This document shows, in pieces, positions 1,185 to 36,518 of a stretch of 64,000 nucleotides of DNA. This DNA is from Caenorhabditis elegans (taxonomy: Eukaryota > Nematoda > Chromadorea > Rhabditida > Rhabditidae): NCBI RefSeq assembly GCF_000002985.6, contig NC_003279.8, positions 9,424,001-9,488,000 of the forward strand. Reading direction: 5' to 3'. The position numbers and the translations under genes were made by a program. A model generated the notes under the pieces. The model was not told the DNA's origin. It ran no database searches and saw nothing but the letters and a program-made list of their open reading frames with translations. Numbering within the stretch: the stretch's first letter is position 1; each line of letters opens with the position of its first letter.

Positions 1185-4158
1185 TCAGCAGAAGGGTTCT
1201 TTTTGCATGAATTCATTGAAGCGAACTTATATTAAAGAGTTGTGAAATTCTGCGCGACAGGAAGCCGTTAGAAACGCCTTCACCTCTGCTCGGTTTTCAC
1301 AAACATATTCCACTTAAAGAGGACTTTTAAATGCTGAAACGCGTGAAGTACTCGGTCAAAAGTCGGCGTTGGTGTTTTTTTTTGTGAAATGGACTTTTAG
1401 TCGCAAAAAAACACTATCCGACAAAATGTTGAAATATCTTCATTAAAAATTTTTTCAATGTAAAACAACAAAAATCAGTTTTATTGGTTTTTAAGCACCA
1501 GGATGATTTTTTCAAAGAAAATCACAAATTTTGATTTAAAAAAAAACACTCCCCGTTGCAGCCTAAAGTGTTAATAACCATTGGTCGTAATAAAAGATGG
1601 TTGACTACAGTTAGCTGACAATGTTTGCTATTGTTACTGCTGTTGCGAGAGGCGATTAGTGTATTCGGGAGGTCCACGCCGGTAGTTTGTTATGCTTGCT
1701 TGACTATATTCACCGTTTCTTTACAATTAACCTATGGTTTAAAAAATTCCGGTTCACTTTTTATTAAACTATCTTGGTTCGTTCACCACAATCGTCTGAA
1801 ATTTTCCGGAGCACATATCGTTATTTTTTAACTGATTTAAATGAAATTCCTGTGGGGCTGTATCAAAACAAAAAATTAAGTATTTTTTTACAATGATCAT
1901 AATATCACCTGTCTACAGTATGCTTGTAAAGCATTCTCCAGAGGTGTTCTATAAATTAATGTTTTAAAACCCCCATAATTAACCCTATTTATTTGCTTGA
2001 AACAATACAGTTTCCCTCTAAATCTGAAAAACTACTATCATCAAACTTTCTAATTTTAAGAATAATTTGTGAATATTGACTAATGTGAAACCTGCAAAAA
2101 AAAAAGAAATGTTTCTCTTTTTCTTTGAATCATCTCAGCTGCAACCTTTTTGGGGCGAAGGCGGCGTGAAAGTTGTCAAACTGGGAGTAGAGGGAACAAA
2201 GTGTATATTTTGGAGTGAGAGAGACCACTCGTATGTAAAGAGAGAGAGAAAGCCCAATGCTCCCACAACACGACTTCATCTTCTTTTTCTTCGCTTTTTC
2301 CATCTTGTCGCCTAGTCCTCCTCCCCTTTCTTCTTTTTCTAGTCCTCCGCCGCCTTCTTTTTCCTTTTTCATTGCTTCTACTTCGTTTTTTTCTTCACAA
2401 CCCCCAAGCCATCCTCGAGTTAAAAAATGCATTGACACACATACAACTCCGTCTACTTTGACTTTTTTTTCTGCTCATCACCCTCTCGCTTCTCCCAAAA
2501 TTCATTACGAAGTGGTATTGTATTATTCCTTTTTTTTTAAATTCCGACTTCGTTTACTTTTGGTTAGTGTTGCACACCAATTGTTAGAATAAAATGAATA
2601 CTGCAGAAGCTGAAGAAGCGCACACCGCCCGTGTGTGTGTGTGTAACTGACTGACTGCGGGTCGTTACTTCTCGAATTTCACGTGTTTGACCATTTTGCC
2701 GTCCCGTGTGCTTTTCTTTCACCCAGAGATGTTGCTCGACTTTTCAAAATGGTGGTTCTCACCCTCGTTTTCCCCCGTTAAGCCATGTGTAGTTTGGAAG
2801 TAGTTCGGTTTTGAAAAAAAAACCATTGTCTTCGTTTCACGGAGGTTTTTAAAAGCAAATGCTCAATCGTTGTTAAGAATGTGTGTGAGGTTAAAGGTCA
2901 CACAATTTCCCTGATTTTTTCATCTATCTCTTTCTCCCCCACAGCAATGACCATATGGAATTAATTTTCATGCTCAGATAAAATTAATCTTTGTTGTCTC
3001 TGTTTCACCAAAAATACCAAAAATCATTGCAATTCTTCCGATTCAATAGATTTGAAATTTTACCCGTAGACCAGACTACCCACTCGGACCTCAAAAACTT
3101 TCGCTTTCAGTCGTCCAATTTCATGTTTTTTGAGAAGGACTTGTCTCGTTCTCCACTGTTTACCATTGTATTTCTCTTGTTCTCTTCTCAACTTGTGTTT
3201 TTGGTTGGTTTCCATTTCCGCCATCCGCTGCTACCCTGTATTCTTTTTTTGCCTCATTTTTCCAAATTGTGAAGGTAATATTAGAGCGAACAATTTGTGA
3301 TGGGAACTATTTTTTTTGTTTCATTGGAAATATTAGCATCATTAAATTTTATTTCATCAAAAACCAAGACTATTAAAATTTAATATTTAACATCTGACTG
3401 GCTGGAAGTCATTTGTTCTATTCTTTCAACAATTTTACAAACTTAAGCACCACCTGCACATTTTCATGAATCGGATCGAAGTTTCAAGGTATTTAGGCAT
3501 TCTTGAGAAAAATTTTTTTTTGACTTTTCTAGAAGATCTAGGAAAATTTAGAAAAAGACTGCCAAGAAAATCAAAAATTCTATACTTTAAATTCTGAAAA
3601 TTCCTTATCGAACTGTTCCCTGCCAATTCCATGTTTGGGAAGTTTATTAAAAATCTTTCAATTGCACTTTAATGGCTAATTTGTTTGTTGATTATCAGTC
3701 TCTTTCTCATTCTCGTGTCACCGCAGACTCTCTCACCCCATTCCTTCTTTCTTCTGGCATGTTATCTCTAGCTTTTTATCAAATTAGATATTAGACGGGC
3801 GGTCTGCTCATTCTGCTTTTTCTAATGTTTCCGGCCACAGAAAGTAGTATTCAAAGTTATAATAAGTTGTTTTTACTGAGAATCCCTACTAAAATGATTT
3901 TCAGAACTAATGCAAACAAAATTATTTAGTTGATCAAATAAGTACCTGACTAATAGCTTTTTTCATATGGAAGATGTGAGCAGCTAAAAGGAGCATAAAA
4001 TTATTCAAAATTTAATAAAATGTATCACATTTAAGTTATTCCCCTTGAAAGTGTTTTGTTTAGATGCCGTCATGAATTAATTCGTTGTTATAGGTGATAT
4101 CAATGCGTCTCTGAGAAATCTATTGATAAATCAGAAACATGAAATCTATTTTTAGTTC

Positions 4159-28924: not shown

Positions 28925-29834
28925 TTTGAATTTGAATTTGAGTTTATTCAACTTAAAAAAGAGAAATAAACAGATAAAACGAGACGAACCCTAAAAGAGT
29001 TCAACTCGAGTAAAAGTTAATTAAAAAAGAAAAAAAAAAGATAATACAAAACCGGTGAAAGGTAGAGAAAGAAAAAGTGAAAGTAGATGTGTAATTAGCA
29101 CCGGGGAATGTTGAGATCAATATAATCAGAGAACTGGTGAGGGGACAAGAAAACCGTAACATTATTGAATAAGTTGTTCCAAATGGGGATAATATGAGCA
29201 AAGAAATGGGTGGAGCATTTGTCCTTCCTAACTAGAATCATTGGATGTCTATTTGAACTAGAAAAAGTGACAAATTGATTGAGGTTAGAAAAATGAGAAG
29301 TACCTGTTAAAAGTCTATAGAGTAATTTCAATTGAGCTTTAATTCTATCGTGTCTGGTGGAGTGGAGATCCATAATACTTAGTCGGTTTTCATAACAGGA
29401 GAATTTGGTATTGCATCTTTGCAGAACGCGCTTGGTAAAGTGTCTTAGAGGTTGTTCAAGTTTAGCTGAGAGCAAAGATTTAGGTGGAGGGGAATAGATT
29501 TCGGAGCAGTAATTGAGAATAGGGGCCACGTAAGTCTTAAAGAGATGGGCATAAAACTTAGGTGTATTGGAGGAGAATGCCTTGAGAATTTGTTTTGCTC
29601 TGAGCAAGGCTAGGCAGCTAACTTTAGCAATGTGGGGATCAAACTTAAGTTTGCAATCAGTAATGAGACCTAAGTCACGAACAGTGGATGAAGGGGGAAT
29701 GGGGACACCGTCCACAGAATAAGAATGATTTTTGTTCCGAGTGCCAAGTGCTAGTAAAGCCGATTTAGTTGGTGCAAGAGGAAGTTTATTTTTCTTGGAC
29801 CACATAACTATGAAATCTATGGAATTTTGGATAG
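28925..29834 (-). mobile_element. 5'-truncated non-LTR retrotransposon (LINE), 910 bp
   Basis: This segment interrupts the right arm of the palindromic element and is flanked by a 5-bp direct repeat TTATT (28920-28924 and 29835-29839). Removing it and one TTATT restores the arm that the left arm predicts. It is in minus orientation: its 3' end carries a short AAATTC repeat tail (plus strand TGAATTTGAATTTG, 28927 on), typical of CR1-like worm LINEs, and its body encodes the C-terminal part of a reverse transcriptase. 5' truncation, a simple-repeat tail and short target duplication are hallmarks of target-primed reverse transcription. Confidence 0.85.
29095..29834 (-). pseudogene. Reverse transcriptase C-terminal fragment of the LINE
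   Basis: The frame is open for about 246 LINE-derived residues without a stop. The fragment carries the region downstream of the catalytic palm: WSKKNKLPLAPTKSALL, then VRDLGLITDCKLKFDPHI, then YVAPILNYCSEIYSP and RHFTKRVLQRC, which fits the thumb/connection region of CR1/Jockey-type ORF2 proteins. The catalytic YxDD motif and the endonuclease are absent, so it cannot be active. The apparent start (Met-Thr-Arg) is encoded by the host palindrome, not the LINE. The intact frame suggests a fairly recent insertion. Confidence 0.85.
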
Positions 29835-32800
29835 TTATTCTGGTCATTCCCTAGTTAGAATAGAGAATTGAATCTCTGATTATAGAATTTATTGAAAATC
29901 TTACTTTTAGATTTGAAAAATTGGAAAATTATTGCAGAAGGGGTTTTGAGGATTTTTGCAAACTTACAAAACTGAAGAAACATTCTAAAAGACTTGGATT
30001 TTCATTCAGTCCTTTACACAAAAAACCGATTTTTTCTACTTTTTAATACTAATGTAATTAAAAGTTTACAAAACAAAAATTTTGATGTTAGTTCATAGAA
30101 ATCAATATTATTAGAGAATTTGAGCTGAAAATGTTTCAGTTGGAATTATCGGATTCAAAACATAACATTTATCATAAAAGCGGCCCGTTAAACGCTTAAA
30201 TGGTTAGATCAAAATTTCTGGAACTGAAAAAAGTTTTTTTTCGGTCGAAAAGAAAAAGTCAGTAAAGAAGTGGAAGAAAAAGAAGAAAAAGTCGAGGAAA
30301 GAGCACATCAAGTATGTATGAGAAGACGTCCTACTTTATTATTTATAATAATCGCTCTTGTTCATACATTTTTGAACGTTTTGACGTGAAGAATTGGGGA
30401 GCACCAAATAGGAAAATATATCGAAATAAAGATGGAGAGAATGTGAAAATGAAGTAGAGGACCACGAATATAAGATTCTTGATCAATTGAATATGAGGGA
30501 ATATCGTCTGGACTACTAATTGAAACTTGAAATTCCTCAAAATTTTTTGAATTGTTTTTGGCAGAGGGATTCCAAGAACTTGGATTATAAATTAAAAAAA
30601 TTGTCGTTTTTGTTTAATAATTGTTTTCTCACCTTTGAAAAATAACTGTTGATATACTGAAAATCTAAACAATATTTCAGAATATTCGAATGAAGAAAAA
30701 TCAGCGCTCTCCCTGCCAGTCCCTTCGAAGCATTTTCAAGAAAATGTTTTTAATGAAAAATCGAAAACGGCTAGTTCTTATTCAAAAATGATAACGGAAC
30801 TGATTTTTCTAAAAATTCTAATTTTTGAGCTATAACCAATTGCAAAACCAGTGTTCTTGTAAGTGGAGAATGAAGAAACATAATTTCCCAATTCCGGAAA
30901 CTTACATCTTTTTGTGGCTACTCAATCCGGTTCCATTTAAAACTAGCCAAAAGAATACATTACCGTATATATGAGAAAAGTGAAACATTGAATACTATAA
31001 GAAAATGATATGAAGGCGTCACTCTCCTGTTGTGAAGAACGGGATTTAAGACACAAGAGAGATGAGACACGTTGCAATCCAATTACGGATACTATGCGAT
31101 TTCGAAACGGGGACATTTGGGAAAAAAGTGGAAGAATTCGATGGTTTGAAACATGAAACGAAAATGAATTGGAAGATTGCTGAGGTTTTGTGACGGTTCA
31201 GATAAGGGATGTAAACTCCTCTGAAATTGGAATATTGGTGTCACAATTATTCGCTTTTTTTGTATTCAGAAATTTTTTGAAAGGTTTAAAAGAGAAAAGA
31301 TTACGGTAGCACCATATATATATTCTTCTGCTCCTTTTTTTTAGATTTTTGTTAAGATTATCAGTACTCAATTCTAACTTATGAGAAAAACAATGCAATT
31401 TTCTGCAATATTCAGAGAGATCAGAGAGAATTAGAAATAAATCATAGTTGGGTTGGACTAATTTTCTTTTATTCTAGCTAGATGCCATCTGGAAAGAACT
31501 GCTCGTAGATTATCTTGACTAAAAAACAACATGTGAGGTGGAACTCTGGAGGTAGGTCCCAATTATCGCAGAAACCTTCAGGTGTAAACTTTAGAAAAAA
31601 CGTCTACCACTTGCTCATCAATGTGCCCTCCATCAATTGGATCAAATGAGAAAATGGCGAGAGATGAAGAGGTTGATGAGAAAAGAAGTGTTCTTAATAC
31701 TACTAATACTAGTAGTTGCAAGACGCTCACTTTCTATTATCAAGATCTCAGATGACCGGGAGAATTCATTAATCTCATCCTTTTATCTTTTGCCATTTCA
31801 ATTAACAATAGGAAATGATCAGAAGGGGATTCTGGATGGGAGAACAATTGAAAAAGGATGAGAAGTTATGAGAATTTGGCGGTGTCGAATTAATAACTTT
31901 ATTTCGAAAGGTGGTGTAGAACTGGGGAGACTGCTACTCATTTAGTGCTAACAAGACCGTAATATAAGCAAACTTTAAAAAAATGCCAGGAAATGTTTAA
32001 TTCAAGTTTCAAATTAAATCAAAAATGTTTCAGTACATGTTTCTTTTAATAAACTGATTTTAATTTTAAAAAATTGGACACTACAGAAATTTAAACAGAA
32101 ACCATACAACTCTAAAGCACTAAAATTGTTTTAATTTCAGACACCGCAGTATTTATTAAAAATATCTGAAACTTCGTAACTTTCTTTTCTAGGACACAAT
32201 TTCTTATTCAAATAACTGTTCATAACTACAAATTTTCTGAAAGTGAAGCTGCAAACTTTGAAAGAAAAGAAGAAAACTTCCAAAATCAAGATGCCATTCT
32301 CCATATTTTAGGAGATAATTATTCTTGGAGAATAGTGAGAGACAATAGACTTTGGGAAAATATATTGGAAGAAAATGAGAATGATGACGAAAAAGGGAGG
32401 AAAAGCATGGAAGAAGGGGCTGGAAGATGGTGAGACATAGAAAGAAAAGGAAAACAATTTTCAGAAAACACAACAAATAGAGTCGTACTGGCACAACGGA
32501 AAAAGGCCATAAGCCCAAAAACTAACAATAAAAGTCGGGCATCAGTCAACGGTTGGAAAGAAGGAAATGGGAGGAGAACATACTTTTCGTGGCCTTTTAC
32601 GGATCATATTTCCGTCGTGTCCGTGCAAAGGAACTTGGATAACAGTTTGTAATTTTCAAATTAATCTTTTCAGGGAAAGTTTCTAAAAATTTCAATTTGG
32701 CACCCCGTTTATGTCATAAACTCCAAAGAATATCTTGCAAATTGAAAAATTTTCTACAAAACAAGTTAGTAGTGGTGTTGGACAAACTGAACCGGATTGT

Positions 32801-33896: not shown

Positions 33897-34805
33897 ATGG
33901 GTTTGGACAAAGGAAAGCAACAAACTGCCAAGAAACGTAAGTTTAATTTTTGTTTTTCAATAGTTTCTCTTAGAGATTTCATCTGAATATACGCTAGTGC
34001 AGGAGTCTTGGGCGAGATGAGGCGGGCGGGAGCCGCACCCCTTAGAGTTGAGCTTTTTTTAACGGTTTCTTAATATTTATTAGTCTATATTTCTAATGTG
34101 TGATGTTTTTCAGCTGGTTTCAACTGCAAACCGTTTGAGTTCGAAATCTCTTCAACGAAATTTCAAATTCCCAACGACAAGCCATTGAAGTACACTTTGA
34201 AATGCACTGCTGATGAGAAACAGGATGTTATCATTCAAGTTCATTCGGTTTTCTTCGAAATTGTTGGTGCAAGACGCAAGCATGGAGTCACTTCTCAAGA
34301 GTTTCATGTTCTTGGAAAAAACGAAGAAATGACTTTTGAGATTGGTCTGAAGGATTTGACCGTAAGTAGCAACTGAAAAAGGCAGTCAAAGATAAATAAT
34401 TTTCAGAATGTTTCGTACGATAATTTCGAGCATGCGCAACTTGCGTCTGCCGCTGGTTTTATCACGTTCACACACTACAAGTCTTCTAGAGATGATGATT
34501 CCGATGCTTCATGGGGTCCCAACAAGAACTTGCTCATCGTCATCACTGACGGAATGGAAGAAGTTGGATTCTGGAAGAAGAAATTGTCGGTTGAAACTGA
34601 AACCGATGAGATGAAGAAGGTGAAAGAAGAGTTTGGTGTGAAACTTGAAGGAGAAAAGAAATATGAAGAGATTGATAAAATGGAAATGGATAGAATGAGG
34701 AAGGAAATTGGGAAGAATCAATCGGCACGTGATGATGGATTTGCACCAATCAAGGACATGCATAAGAAGTATTTGAAAGAGAAATATGAATGTGTTATTT
34801 CGTAA
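33897..34805 (+). CDS. Divergent MSP-like domain protein with C-terminal CaaX box (228 aa)
   Basis: Exons 33897-33936, 34114-34361, 34407-34805 give 228 aa. The first ~115 residues form a beta-rich domain whose order of features resembles the major sperm protein fold (FEFEISSTKFQIPNDKPLKY ... IIQVHSVFFEIVGAR ... HGVTSQEFHVLGKNEEMTF ... ITFTHYKS); the assignment to MSP is inferred, as similarity is weak. The remaining ~100 residues are a Lys/Glu-rich, probably helical tail. The protein ends CVIS, a canonical CaaX box predicting farnesylation and membrane anchoring. The paralogue downstream (35303-36518) has the same exon phases and also ends in CaaX. AATAAA at 34822-34827. Possible alternative: an Ig-like or nematode-specific domain. 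Confidence 0.82.
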
Positions 34806-35302
34806 TTCATTCGGTTTATTTAATAAAGTTTGCTAAGTATTGGTTAAAAAGCTATTGTTCGAATTAGACGTCCAGCTAACAAGGAAACGTTTTCGGCTTA
34901 ACTCCGCAATCTTGAATGAAAACTATGGCTTACTTTAAAAAATAATTCTATAGTACACAGATAGAGCAGTGAAAATTGATTGGTAGTTTGAGGATTTCGT
35001 TTTGAAAACAAATCTGATTTTTCTTCTGAAACGTACAAATGTATTGATAATGATTCTCTAGTCGAAAGTCCATCGCCGCAGCTACATATTGTGTAGAAAG
35101 CTATGTCGAGGGGCTAAAAACCTTTTATTGTAAGTCTGGAATACAGTAAAGATACTTTTGTATTATATATTTCACATTGTCACACATTTACTGTAAACTC
35201 AGAAAATCAAGAATAAAACTTTTTTCAAGCGCACACGTGAACTAAATTTAGTTGATTTCACTGACCATTGTCATCAAAAATAGTTTATTATCCAAAAACG
35301 AC
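34806..35302 (+). other. Spacer between the two MSP-like paralogues
   Basis: About 500 bp without coding signal, beginning with the AATAAA of the first paralogue. The gap is longer than the usual ~100 bp of worm operons, so the second gene probably has its own promoter. Confidence 0.45.
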
Positions 35303-36518
35303 ATGGATATCGCTCGACCCTCATGCTATGAGACAGTCCGAAATGACGATGATAAGAAGTCATCCGACGCTGATATTTACAATACGTCAGTTAAATGTAA
35401 GTTACATGAAGTGTCACTATTCTAGTGCAGAACGCAGCTAACACGCATTTCGTTTTTTCTGGATCTTGTCCGATTTTTCTTGGGAAAGTAGGGGATCGGG
35501 GATAGGAAGATGACGGAAACTTTCGAGTATCAAACAGGATAATTTTGAAATGACAGCTTGTTTAACACAAACAGTTTTTCGAGTTGCTTTCAAGCTTTCC
35601 GGTTAAATAAATGTTTATAAAATAATCAATTACAGTGGAAGACCCTTCTGCTCCTAGTCATGATGAGCAATGGACATACAATTTCTTTATTACACCGCTT
35701 AATCTTAACATCTCGCCAACGGATTTCAAAATTCCCAATGACAAATCGGTGAAGTATACTGTGAAGTGTGAGGCAAAGATAAAACAAGATTTGATAGTTC
35801 AAGTTCACTCACTTTTCTTCGAAATTGTTGGTGCAAGATGCAAGCGTGGAGTCACTTCTCAAGAATTTCATATTCTTTCTGAAAATGAGACAATGACTTT
35901 TGAAGTTGGTATGAAGGATTTGAATGTGAGTTTGTATTTTGTGCTTCTTTTGGTTCTGGAGCAAACGTTTTCATATTACCAGCCTGTAACATACATACAG
36001 TGTTGACCATAAATGAAAAATTACAAACATCTGAAACCATTTAACAAATTTCAAATGTAATTTCTTTCCAGAACGTGTCATACGAAAACTATCAAGCTGC
36101 GAATCTCTTGTCACCTGCCGGTTTTATCACTTTCACACATTTCAAATCGCTTCGAAAGGATGATGCATCATGGGGTGTTAAGGATCCGAAGAAACTGATG
36201 AAAGTTGTCACAAAAGGTGATGGTGGACGTTATAACTTGGAGAAACTTCTTGTGGAAACCGAAACCGATTCGATTAAAAAGATTTCAGAGGATTTTGCAA
36301 TGATCTTGCAGCAGGGAATGGATGATAAACGTACAAAGGAACAGGAGATGAAAATGGGTAATATGGAAATGTTTGCAACTGAAGAATATGTTGAAAAATG
36401 GAAGAAAGATAAGAAAGCGATTGAAATTGCTCAGAAGAATCAAAGAGAGTGGAATGATAAAAAATTGGAGAAACCAGGCATGCAGAAGAAGAAGGAGAAG
36501 AAGTGCAATATTATGTAA
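35303..36518 (+). CDS. Divergent MSP-like domain protein with C-terminal CaaX box, paralogue 2 (276 aa)
   Basis: Exons 35303-35396, 35636-35925, 36072-36518 give 276 aa. The core repeats its neighbour closely (FKIPNDKSVKYTVKCEAKIK, LFFEIVGARCKRGVTSQEFH, then NVSYENYQAA and GFITFTHFKS), with the same two intron positions within the domain. The N-terminus is longer (about 45 extra residues, acidic). The C-terminal half is a long Lys/Glu/Met-rich, probably helical tail with EWNDKKLEKPGMQ before the end. The last residues KKCNIM form a CaaX box (Met at X favours farnesyl transferase) after a polybasic KKKEKK stretch, the classic plasma-membrane targeting pair. AATAAA at 36533-36538. Function unknown. 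Confidence 0.83.

Follow-up and report, generated by a model that had tools for sequence, protein, structure and literature searches.

Two neighbouring genes on chromosome I of Caenorhabditis elegans raise the question of whether a domain resembling the major sperm protein (MSP) can be fastened to membranes by a lipid. An earlier note on this DNA proposed that both genes join such a domain, divergent but rich in beta structure, to a long charged helical tail ending in a CaaX prenylation box. The proposal has separable parts (the paralogy, the C-terminal signal and the nature of the domain), which fare differently. I will refer to the genes as A and B and to the whole stretch of DNA analysed, 64,000 nucleotides at 9,424,001-9,488,000 of contig 1, as the window; positions are those of the window unless a chromosome or locus is named.

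The tandem pair and its relatives

Genes A (33897-34805) and B (35303-36518) adjoin on the forward strand and consist of three exons each (Table 1), encoding proteins of 228 and 276 amino acids. Position 33897 is the ATG of gene A, and position 36518 is the last base of the stop codon of gene B. All four introns have the form GT...AG, and in both genes the first lies in phase 1 and the second in phase 0. In an alignment of the four proteins of the family described below, A and B agree at 5 of 18 positions at the N-terminus (A residues 1-18), 70 of 104 (67%) in the domain (A 19-122), 19 of 40 in the segment that follows (A 123-165) and 21 of 56 (38%) in the tail (A 166-224). In the region encoded by exon 2 of gene A, residues 16-99 of A are 66% identical to gene B. 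Adjacency, common intron phases and the conserved domain bear out the description of A and B as tandem paralogues, and the coordinates given for them were exact.

Table 1. Exons and C-terminal motifs of the gene pair, and location of the two relatives found elsewhere in the genome
Feature	Position	Strand	Description
Gene A exon 1	33897..33936	+	13 codons plus one base; ATG, GTAAGT donor, phase 1
Gene A exon 2	34114..34361	+	Starts conserved domain, A residues 14-96; splice sites
Gene A exon 3	34407..34805	+	Remaining domain with the LSVETETD signature; charged tail with CVIS before the stop
CaaX box CVIS of gene A	34791..34802	+	TGT GTT ATT TCG, read from sequence
Gene B exon 1	35303..35396	+	ATG, GTAAGT donor, phase 1
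Gene B exon 2	35636..35925	+	Starts conserved domain
Gene B exon 3	36072..36518	+	Remaining domain with the LLVETETD signature; charged tail, longer than in A, with KKKEKK and CNIM before the stop
CaaX box CNIM of gene B	36504..36515	+	TGC AAT ATT ATG, KKKEKK just before
Relative C	I:12,929,398-12,931,069		286 aa, ends KKKKKILGCC; exons at 2398-2425, 2474-2796 and 3560-4069 of locus L016
Relative D	I:6,246,575-6,245,943 (L017 3440-4075)	-	Single exon, 211 aa, ends CDCCIII (CIII box)

Other open frames in the window match Skp1, RRM and ion channel families in Pfam, which would agree with the presence of skr-1, mec-8 and a twk channel on cosmid F46A9. On the reverse strand, a frame of 251 amino acids (29095-29850) resembles, by eye, the C-terminal region of a reverse transcriptase protein of the LINE type; it has no Pfam match at an E-value of 0.01 or better.

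The genome (100,286,401 bases in seven contigs) was searched with each of the four whole proteins. Besides A and B, the search gives two relatives, both matched through the domain: C at 12.93 Mb and D at 6.246 Mb of chromosome I, the latter presumably on cosmid C48E7. As tandem duplicates, A and B belong to an orphan family of which four genes were found in this genome. The second intron of C is in phase 0, as in A and B. Its first, in phase 1 in the model used, is putative, since its 48 bases are in frame and free of stops. D is about 26% identical to A and is found from A at an E-value of 5.1e-5 (over A residues 12-172), from C at 4.4e-4 and from B at 0.0016. Its membership is the weakest link in the family, because D as query retrieves C only at 0.05 and the pair A and B at 2.9 and 3.8, respectively. 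Two further places, on contig 3 (query D, E 0.635) and on contig 5 (E 3.19), were taken as chance matches. Among the columns invariant across all four proteins are those of S-x-x-F-x-I, of L-x(4)-ET and of the cysteine at the C-terminus, and the signature L-x-[VL]-[ED]-x-E-T-[DE], which is short and conserved, marks the family.

The surroundings of D deserve separate mention. On the opposite strand, a frame to one side of it matches Cadherin_3 clearly (L017 4685-5302, E 1.3e-15) and one to the other side matches Cadherin_3 weakly, below the cut-off (L017 2189-2578, E 0.02), and for this reason D appears to be nested in another gene and antisense to it. With a single exon, as against the two introns of A and B, D is perhaps a retroposed copy.

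A search of the literature found no description of the function of these genes, nor the name F46A9.2. F46A9.1, a protein of the right size, turned up in a single paper. The available excerpt of PMC1950093 lists in its Table 2 a C. elegans protein F46A9.1 (NP_492509) of 228 amino acids, entered there without predicted signal peptide, transmembrane segment (TMHMM "no"), InterPro domain or PDB alignment; a stable fragment of the recombinant protein, residues 1-189, was defined by limited proteolysis and spontaneous degradation. F46A9.1 is probably gene A, since both length and locus agree, and the stable fragment fits a folded core followed by a labile tail.

The C-terminal cysteines

The ends claimed for the pair were confirmed from the sequence: A ends in KEKYE-CVIS and B in KKKEKK-CNIM. 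A cysteine at position -4 followed by acceptable residues is found in A (CVIS), B (CNIM) and D (CIII), but not in C, which ends in GCC, a di-cysteine of the Rab type. Within one family, then, a di-cysteine stands in place of the CaaX box (L016 3560-4069). In C a run of five lysines lies three residues ahead of the di-cysteine, and in D the sequence CDC lies ahead of CIII.

With Cx[ILVM]x at the end of three of the four members and -GCC at the end of the other, the feature most likely to be common to the family is a lipidated C-terminus. As a background that can only be rough, because most of the frames are not real genes, Cx[ILVM]x closes 11 of the window's 1259 stop-to-stop frames of at least 30 amino acids. 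The probability that three or more of four proteins of the family's composition would have this ending is 1.6e-7 if the members were independent, which they are not: A and B share descent, and so their boxes do not count as two. The ends of C and D are a better test of the motif than the pair, and these additional relatives are informative about the cysteine because they were retrieved through another part of the protein, the domain. The retention of the cysteine in a diverged tail and its recurrence in these paralogues, used here instead of orthologues, form the chief positive result of the analysis.

The pair itself retains the cysteine at -4 although identity in the tail is down to 38%, so that the contrast drawn in the earlier note, of tails that diverged greatly with a CaaX box kept in both, holds when tail (21/56) is set against domain (70/104). 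Rates of substitution between A and B do not single out the tail, as dS rises along with dN (dN/dS terms of 0.55/1.81 in the tail and 0.28/1.01 in the domain, near saturation).

As a general rule, a CaaX box with S or M as its last residue suggests farnesyltransferase, and one with I suggests geranylgeranyltransferase I. The -GCC end of C resembles Rab C-termini, but prenylation of a Rab-type -CC normally requires a Rab plus its escort protein, and C may for that reason be only palmitoylated or else unmodified. Bacteria do not prenylate.

It might be argued that the C-terminal cysteines are merely inherited, with no lipid attached and the proteins soluble. The boxes of A and B are, after all, those of paralogues, C lacks a CaaX box, and the excerpt of PMC1950093 presents F46A9.1 as a manageable recombinant protein, with expression in Escherichia coli implied. 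I consider this unlikely, however, in view of the persistence of the cysteine at -4 as the tails fell to 38% identity and the presence in the distant D of CIII plus more cysteines. The lipid anchoring proposed in the earlier note thus gains support, as a prediction, from a cysteine motif that persists in the divergent D (CIII) and C (GCC).

A milder reading is that the family is lineage-specific and made up of ordinary prenylated peripheral proteins, neither domain nor anchor being new in kind. CaaX and CC are both among the C-terminal signals over-represented in seven eukaryotic proteomes, C. elegans included, in a study that counts CC as a signal for prenylation (PMC1929074, in the excerpt available). 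The domain sits less easily with such ordinariness: it has no relative above the Pfam cut-off, nor at an E-value of 0.1 or better in NCBIfam (prokaryotes only) or among PDB sequences. I regard this reading as somewhat probable, and it overlaps with the explanation favoured below.

The identity of the domain

The resemblance to MSP is the part of the original proposal that was not borne out. No Pfam family exceeds its cut-off for any of the four proteins, and PF00635, the MSP family, is unlisted for all four up to an E-value of 10, a limit to be read with the knowledge that filtering by the program removes most weak matches. Over the genome PF00635 has 125 matches at an E-value of 0.001 or better, none of them inside the window. 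Comparison by hhalign of the family profile with 24 of those 125 MSP domains gives a probability of 1.2% and a score of 15.1 over 13 aligned columns, and single members give 1.1-2.6% each. Against an unfiltered MSP HMM, A scores 0.9 bits, B 1.9 and C 0.6, well within the range of their own shuffled sequences (as high in 70, 69 and 95 of 500, respectively). D, at 5.8 bits, is equalled by 2 of 500 shuffles, with an E-value of 1.7, and 9 of 2132 decoys score higher. D may be called the sole hint of MSP likeness, near the edge of what shuffling produces. When the search was run in the other direction, the best true MSP was outscored by 8 of 1200 shuffled MSPs.

Other collections gave nothing closer. 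NCBIfam, which covers prokaryotes only, has no match to any of the four at an E-value of 0.1 or better, and the PDB sequences contain no relative at that threshold; the best matches there (E 0.56 with A alone, 0.34 with a profile of A to D) were taken as chance. Nor did Pfam match any member to a GTPase or lamin domain. A literature search on CaaX boxes with MSP, judged by titles and the opening of abstracts, produced nothing on these genes or on a prenylated MSP protein.

The MSP domain folds as a beta sandwich of seven strands, like that of immunoglobulins. AlphaFold was run twice, on alignments of three rows drawn from window DNA only, and both models include 15 residues from intron 2 of gene A. 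The mean pLDDT was 38.7 and 43.9, and both models are too poor for a conclusion about the fold. In these low-confidence models a helix appears at about A 46-66, where the MSP reading wants strands, and the first run places tail helices at model residues 164-199 and 210-224. A Foldseek search of the PDB with the second model (pLDDT 43.9) gave no match at an E-value of 0.001 or better, the best being 0.48. Judged by the periodicity of hydrophobic residues, strands are the better reading at A 21-32, 38-44 and 85-93, and A 49-65 and 113-120 are undecided. The same measure applied to the tail stretch A 163-176 gives 0.28 for helix and 0.36 for beta, in a test that leans to beta because five beta angles are compared with one helix angle. 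Heptad patterns in the tails are no stronger than in shuffled sequences for A, B and D (250, 241 and 450 of 500 shuffles as high) and marginal for C (32 of 500). Of the "long charged helical tail", then, the charge stands, but the helix is seen only in a low-confidence model, and periodicity in the one stretch examined does not favour it.

For comparison, 40 MSP-domain loci were examined out of the 125 matches. None has an open frame with a cysteine at -4, with the caution that the end of the frame may differ from that of the protein if an intron follows, and 16 end in PIEYNP. AGATCT is a sperm promoter element; a literature search on it in that role found nothing. It occurs within 300 bases upstream of 10 of the 40 loci, in seven of them 91-97 bases before the nearest in-frame ATG (L052, L054, L055, L056, L061, L062 and L064). 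As these seven are similar msp copies, their common spacing may only mirror descent. The element also lies 49 bases upstream of A, but it is absent from the 300 bases before B, C and D, and with 13 copies in the window the one before A is not evidence.

One might still read the domain as a highly diverged beta sandwich of the MSP/PapD type, the proteins being prenyl-anchored MSP scaffolds analogous to VAP with a lipid substituting for the transmembrane tail, perhaps in sperm. The beta periodicity of A at three places speaks for it, D outdoes most of its shuffles on the MSP HMM, only 5 of 200 column-shuffled alignments score as high as the family profile in hhalign, and by eye the strand spacing of D seems MSP-like. 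Set against this are the failure of PF00635 to appear for any member, the low hhalign probabilities over so few columns, the scores of A, B and C, which fall within the range of their shuffled sequences, the shuffled MSPs that beat the best true one, the helix that low-confidence models put across expected strands and the lack of a cysteine at -4 in the MSP loci; as for sperm, the AGATCT of A is at a different distance and the other three genes have none. I find this reading doubtful. More doubtful still is its fuller form, in which a far-diverged MSP/PapD-like nematode domain tethered by prenylation would serve as a lipid-anchored counterpart of VAP or as a membrane-bound organiser of MSP filaments.

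A proposed explanation and known systems

The explanation I favour, and think quite likely, is that A to D make up an orphan family whose proteins carry a C-terminal prenyl group and sit at membranes as peripheral proteins. Each protein probably has a beta-rich globular domain of about 105 residues. I infer the lipidation, the membrane location and the role as adaptor from the sequences, as follows. In the cytosol an isoprenoid would be put on the cysteine, most likely by farnesyltransferase where the box is CVIS or CNIM and by geranylgeranyltransferase I where it is CIII, after which the last three residues would be cut off and the cysteine methylated. A second signal, either a stretch of lysines (B and C) or additional cysteines open to palmitoylation (C and D), would keep the protein at the cytosolic face of a membrane. 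There the domain would be displayed on a flexible stalk, and the protein would act as a peripheral membrane adaptor.

What this offers is a specific prediction for genes for which no function was found: their location at a membrane should depend on one cysteine. It also defines four genes as an orphan family, outside any Pfam family at the cut-off, with a C-terminal cysteine signal in common. If the domain were MSP-like after all, the family would represent a new way of anchoring that domain.

Three known systems invite comparison. VAP and Scs2 consist of an N-terminal MSP domain, a coiled coil and a C-terminal transmembrane tail anchor. The tail anchor is also mentioned in the abstract of PMC9213790. 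If the domain of A to D were MSP-like, the order of parts would be the same: domain, charged stalk and an anchor on the cytosolic side of the membrane. The family differs in having no detected MSP homology, in a predicted anchor that is a prenyl group rather than a transmembrane helix (the C-termini are charged and carry cysteine motifs), and in tails that, in A, B and D, give no heptad signal above shuffles.

The classical MSPs of C. elegans (PF00635) belong to the same genome, and part of the domain of A has beta periodicity. In contrast to them, A to D do not match PF00635 and have 52-104 residues between the ETD/ETE motif and the end of the protein, and the endings found among MSP loci (PIEYNP in 16 of 40, a cysteine at -4 in none) are unlike theirs.

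Ras and the nuclear lamins are farnesylated CaaX proteins. A and B resemble them in CaaX boxes of the farnesyltransferase type, with S or M as the last residue, and B also in its polybasic stretch. The family is set apart from both by a domain that matches neither GTPases nor lamins in Pfam and is itself unclassified.
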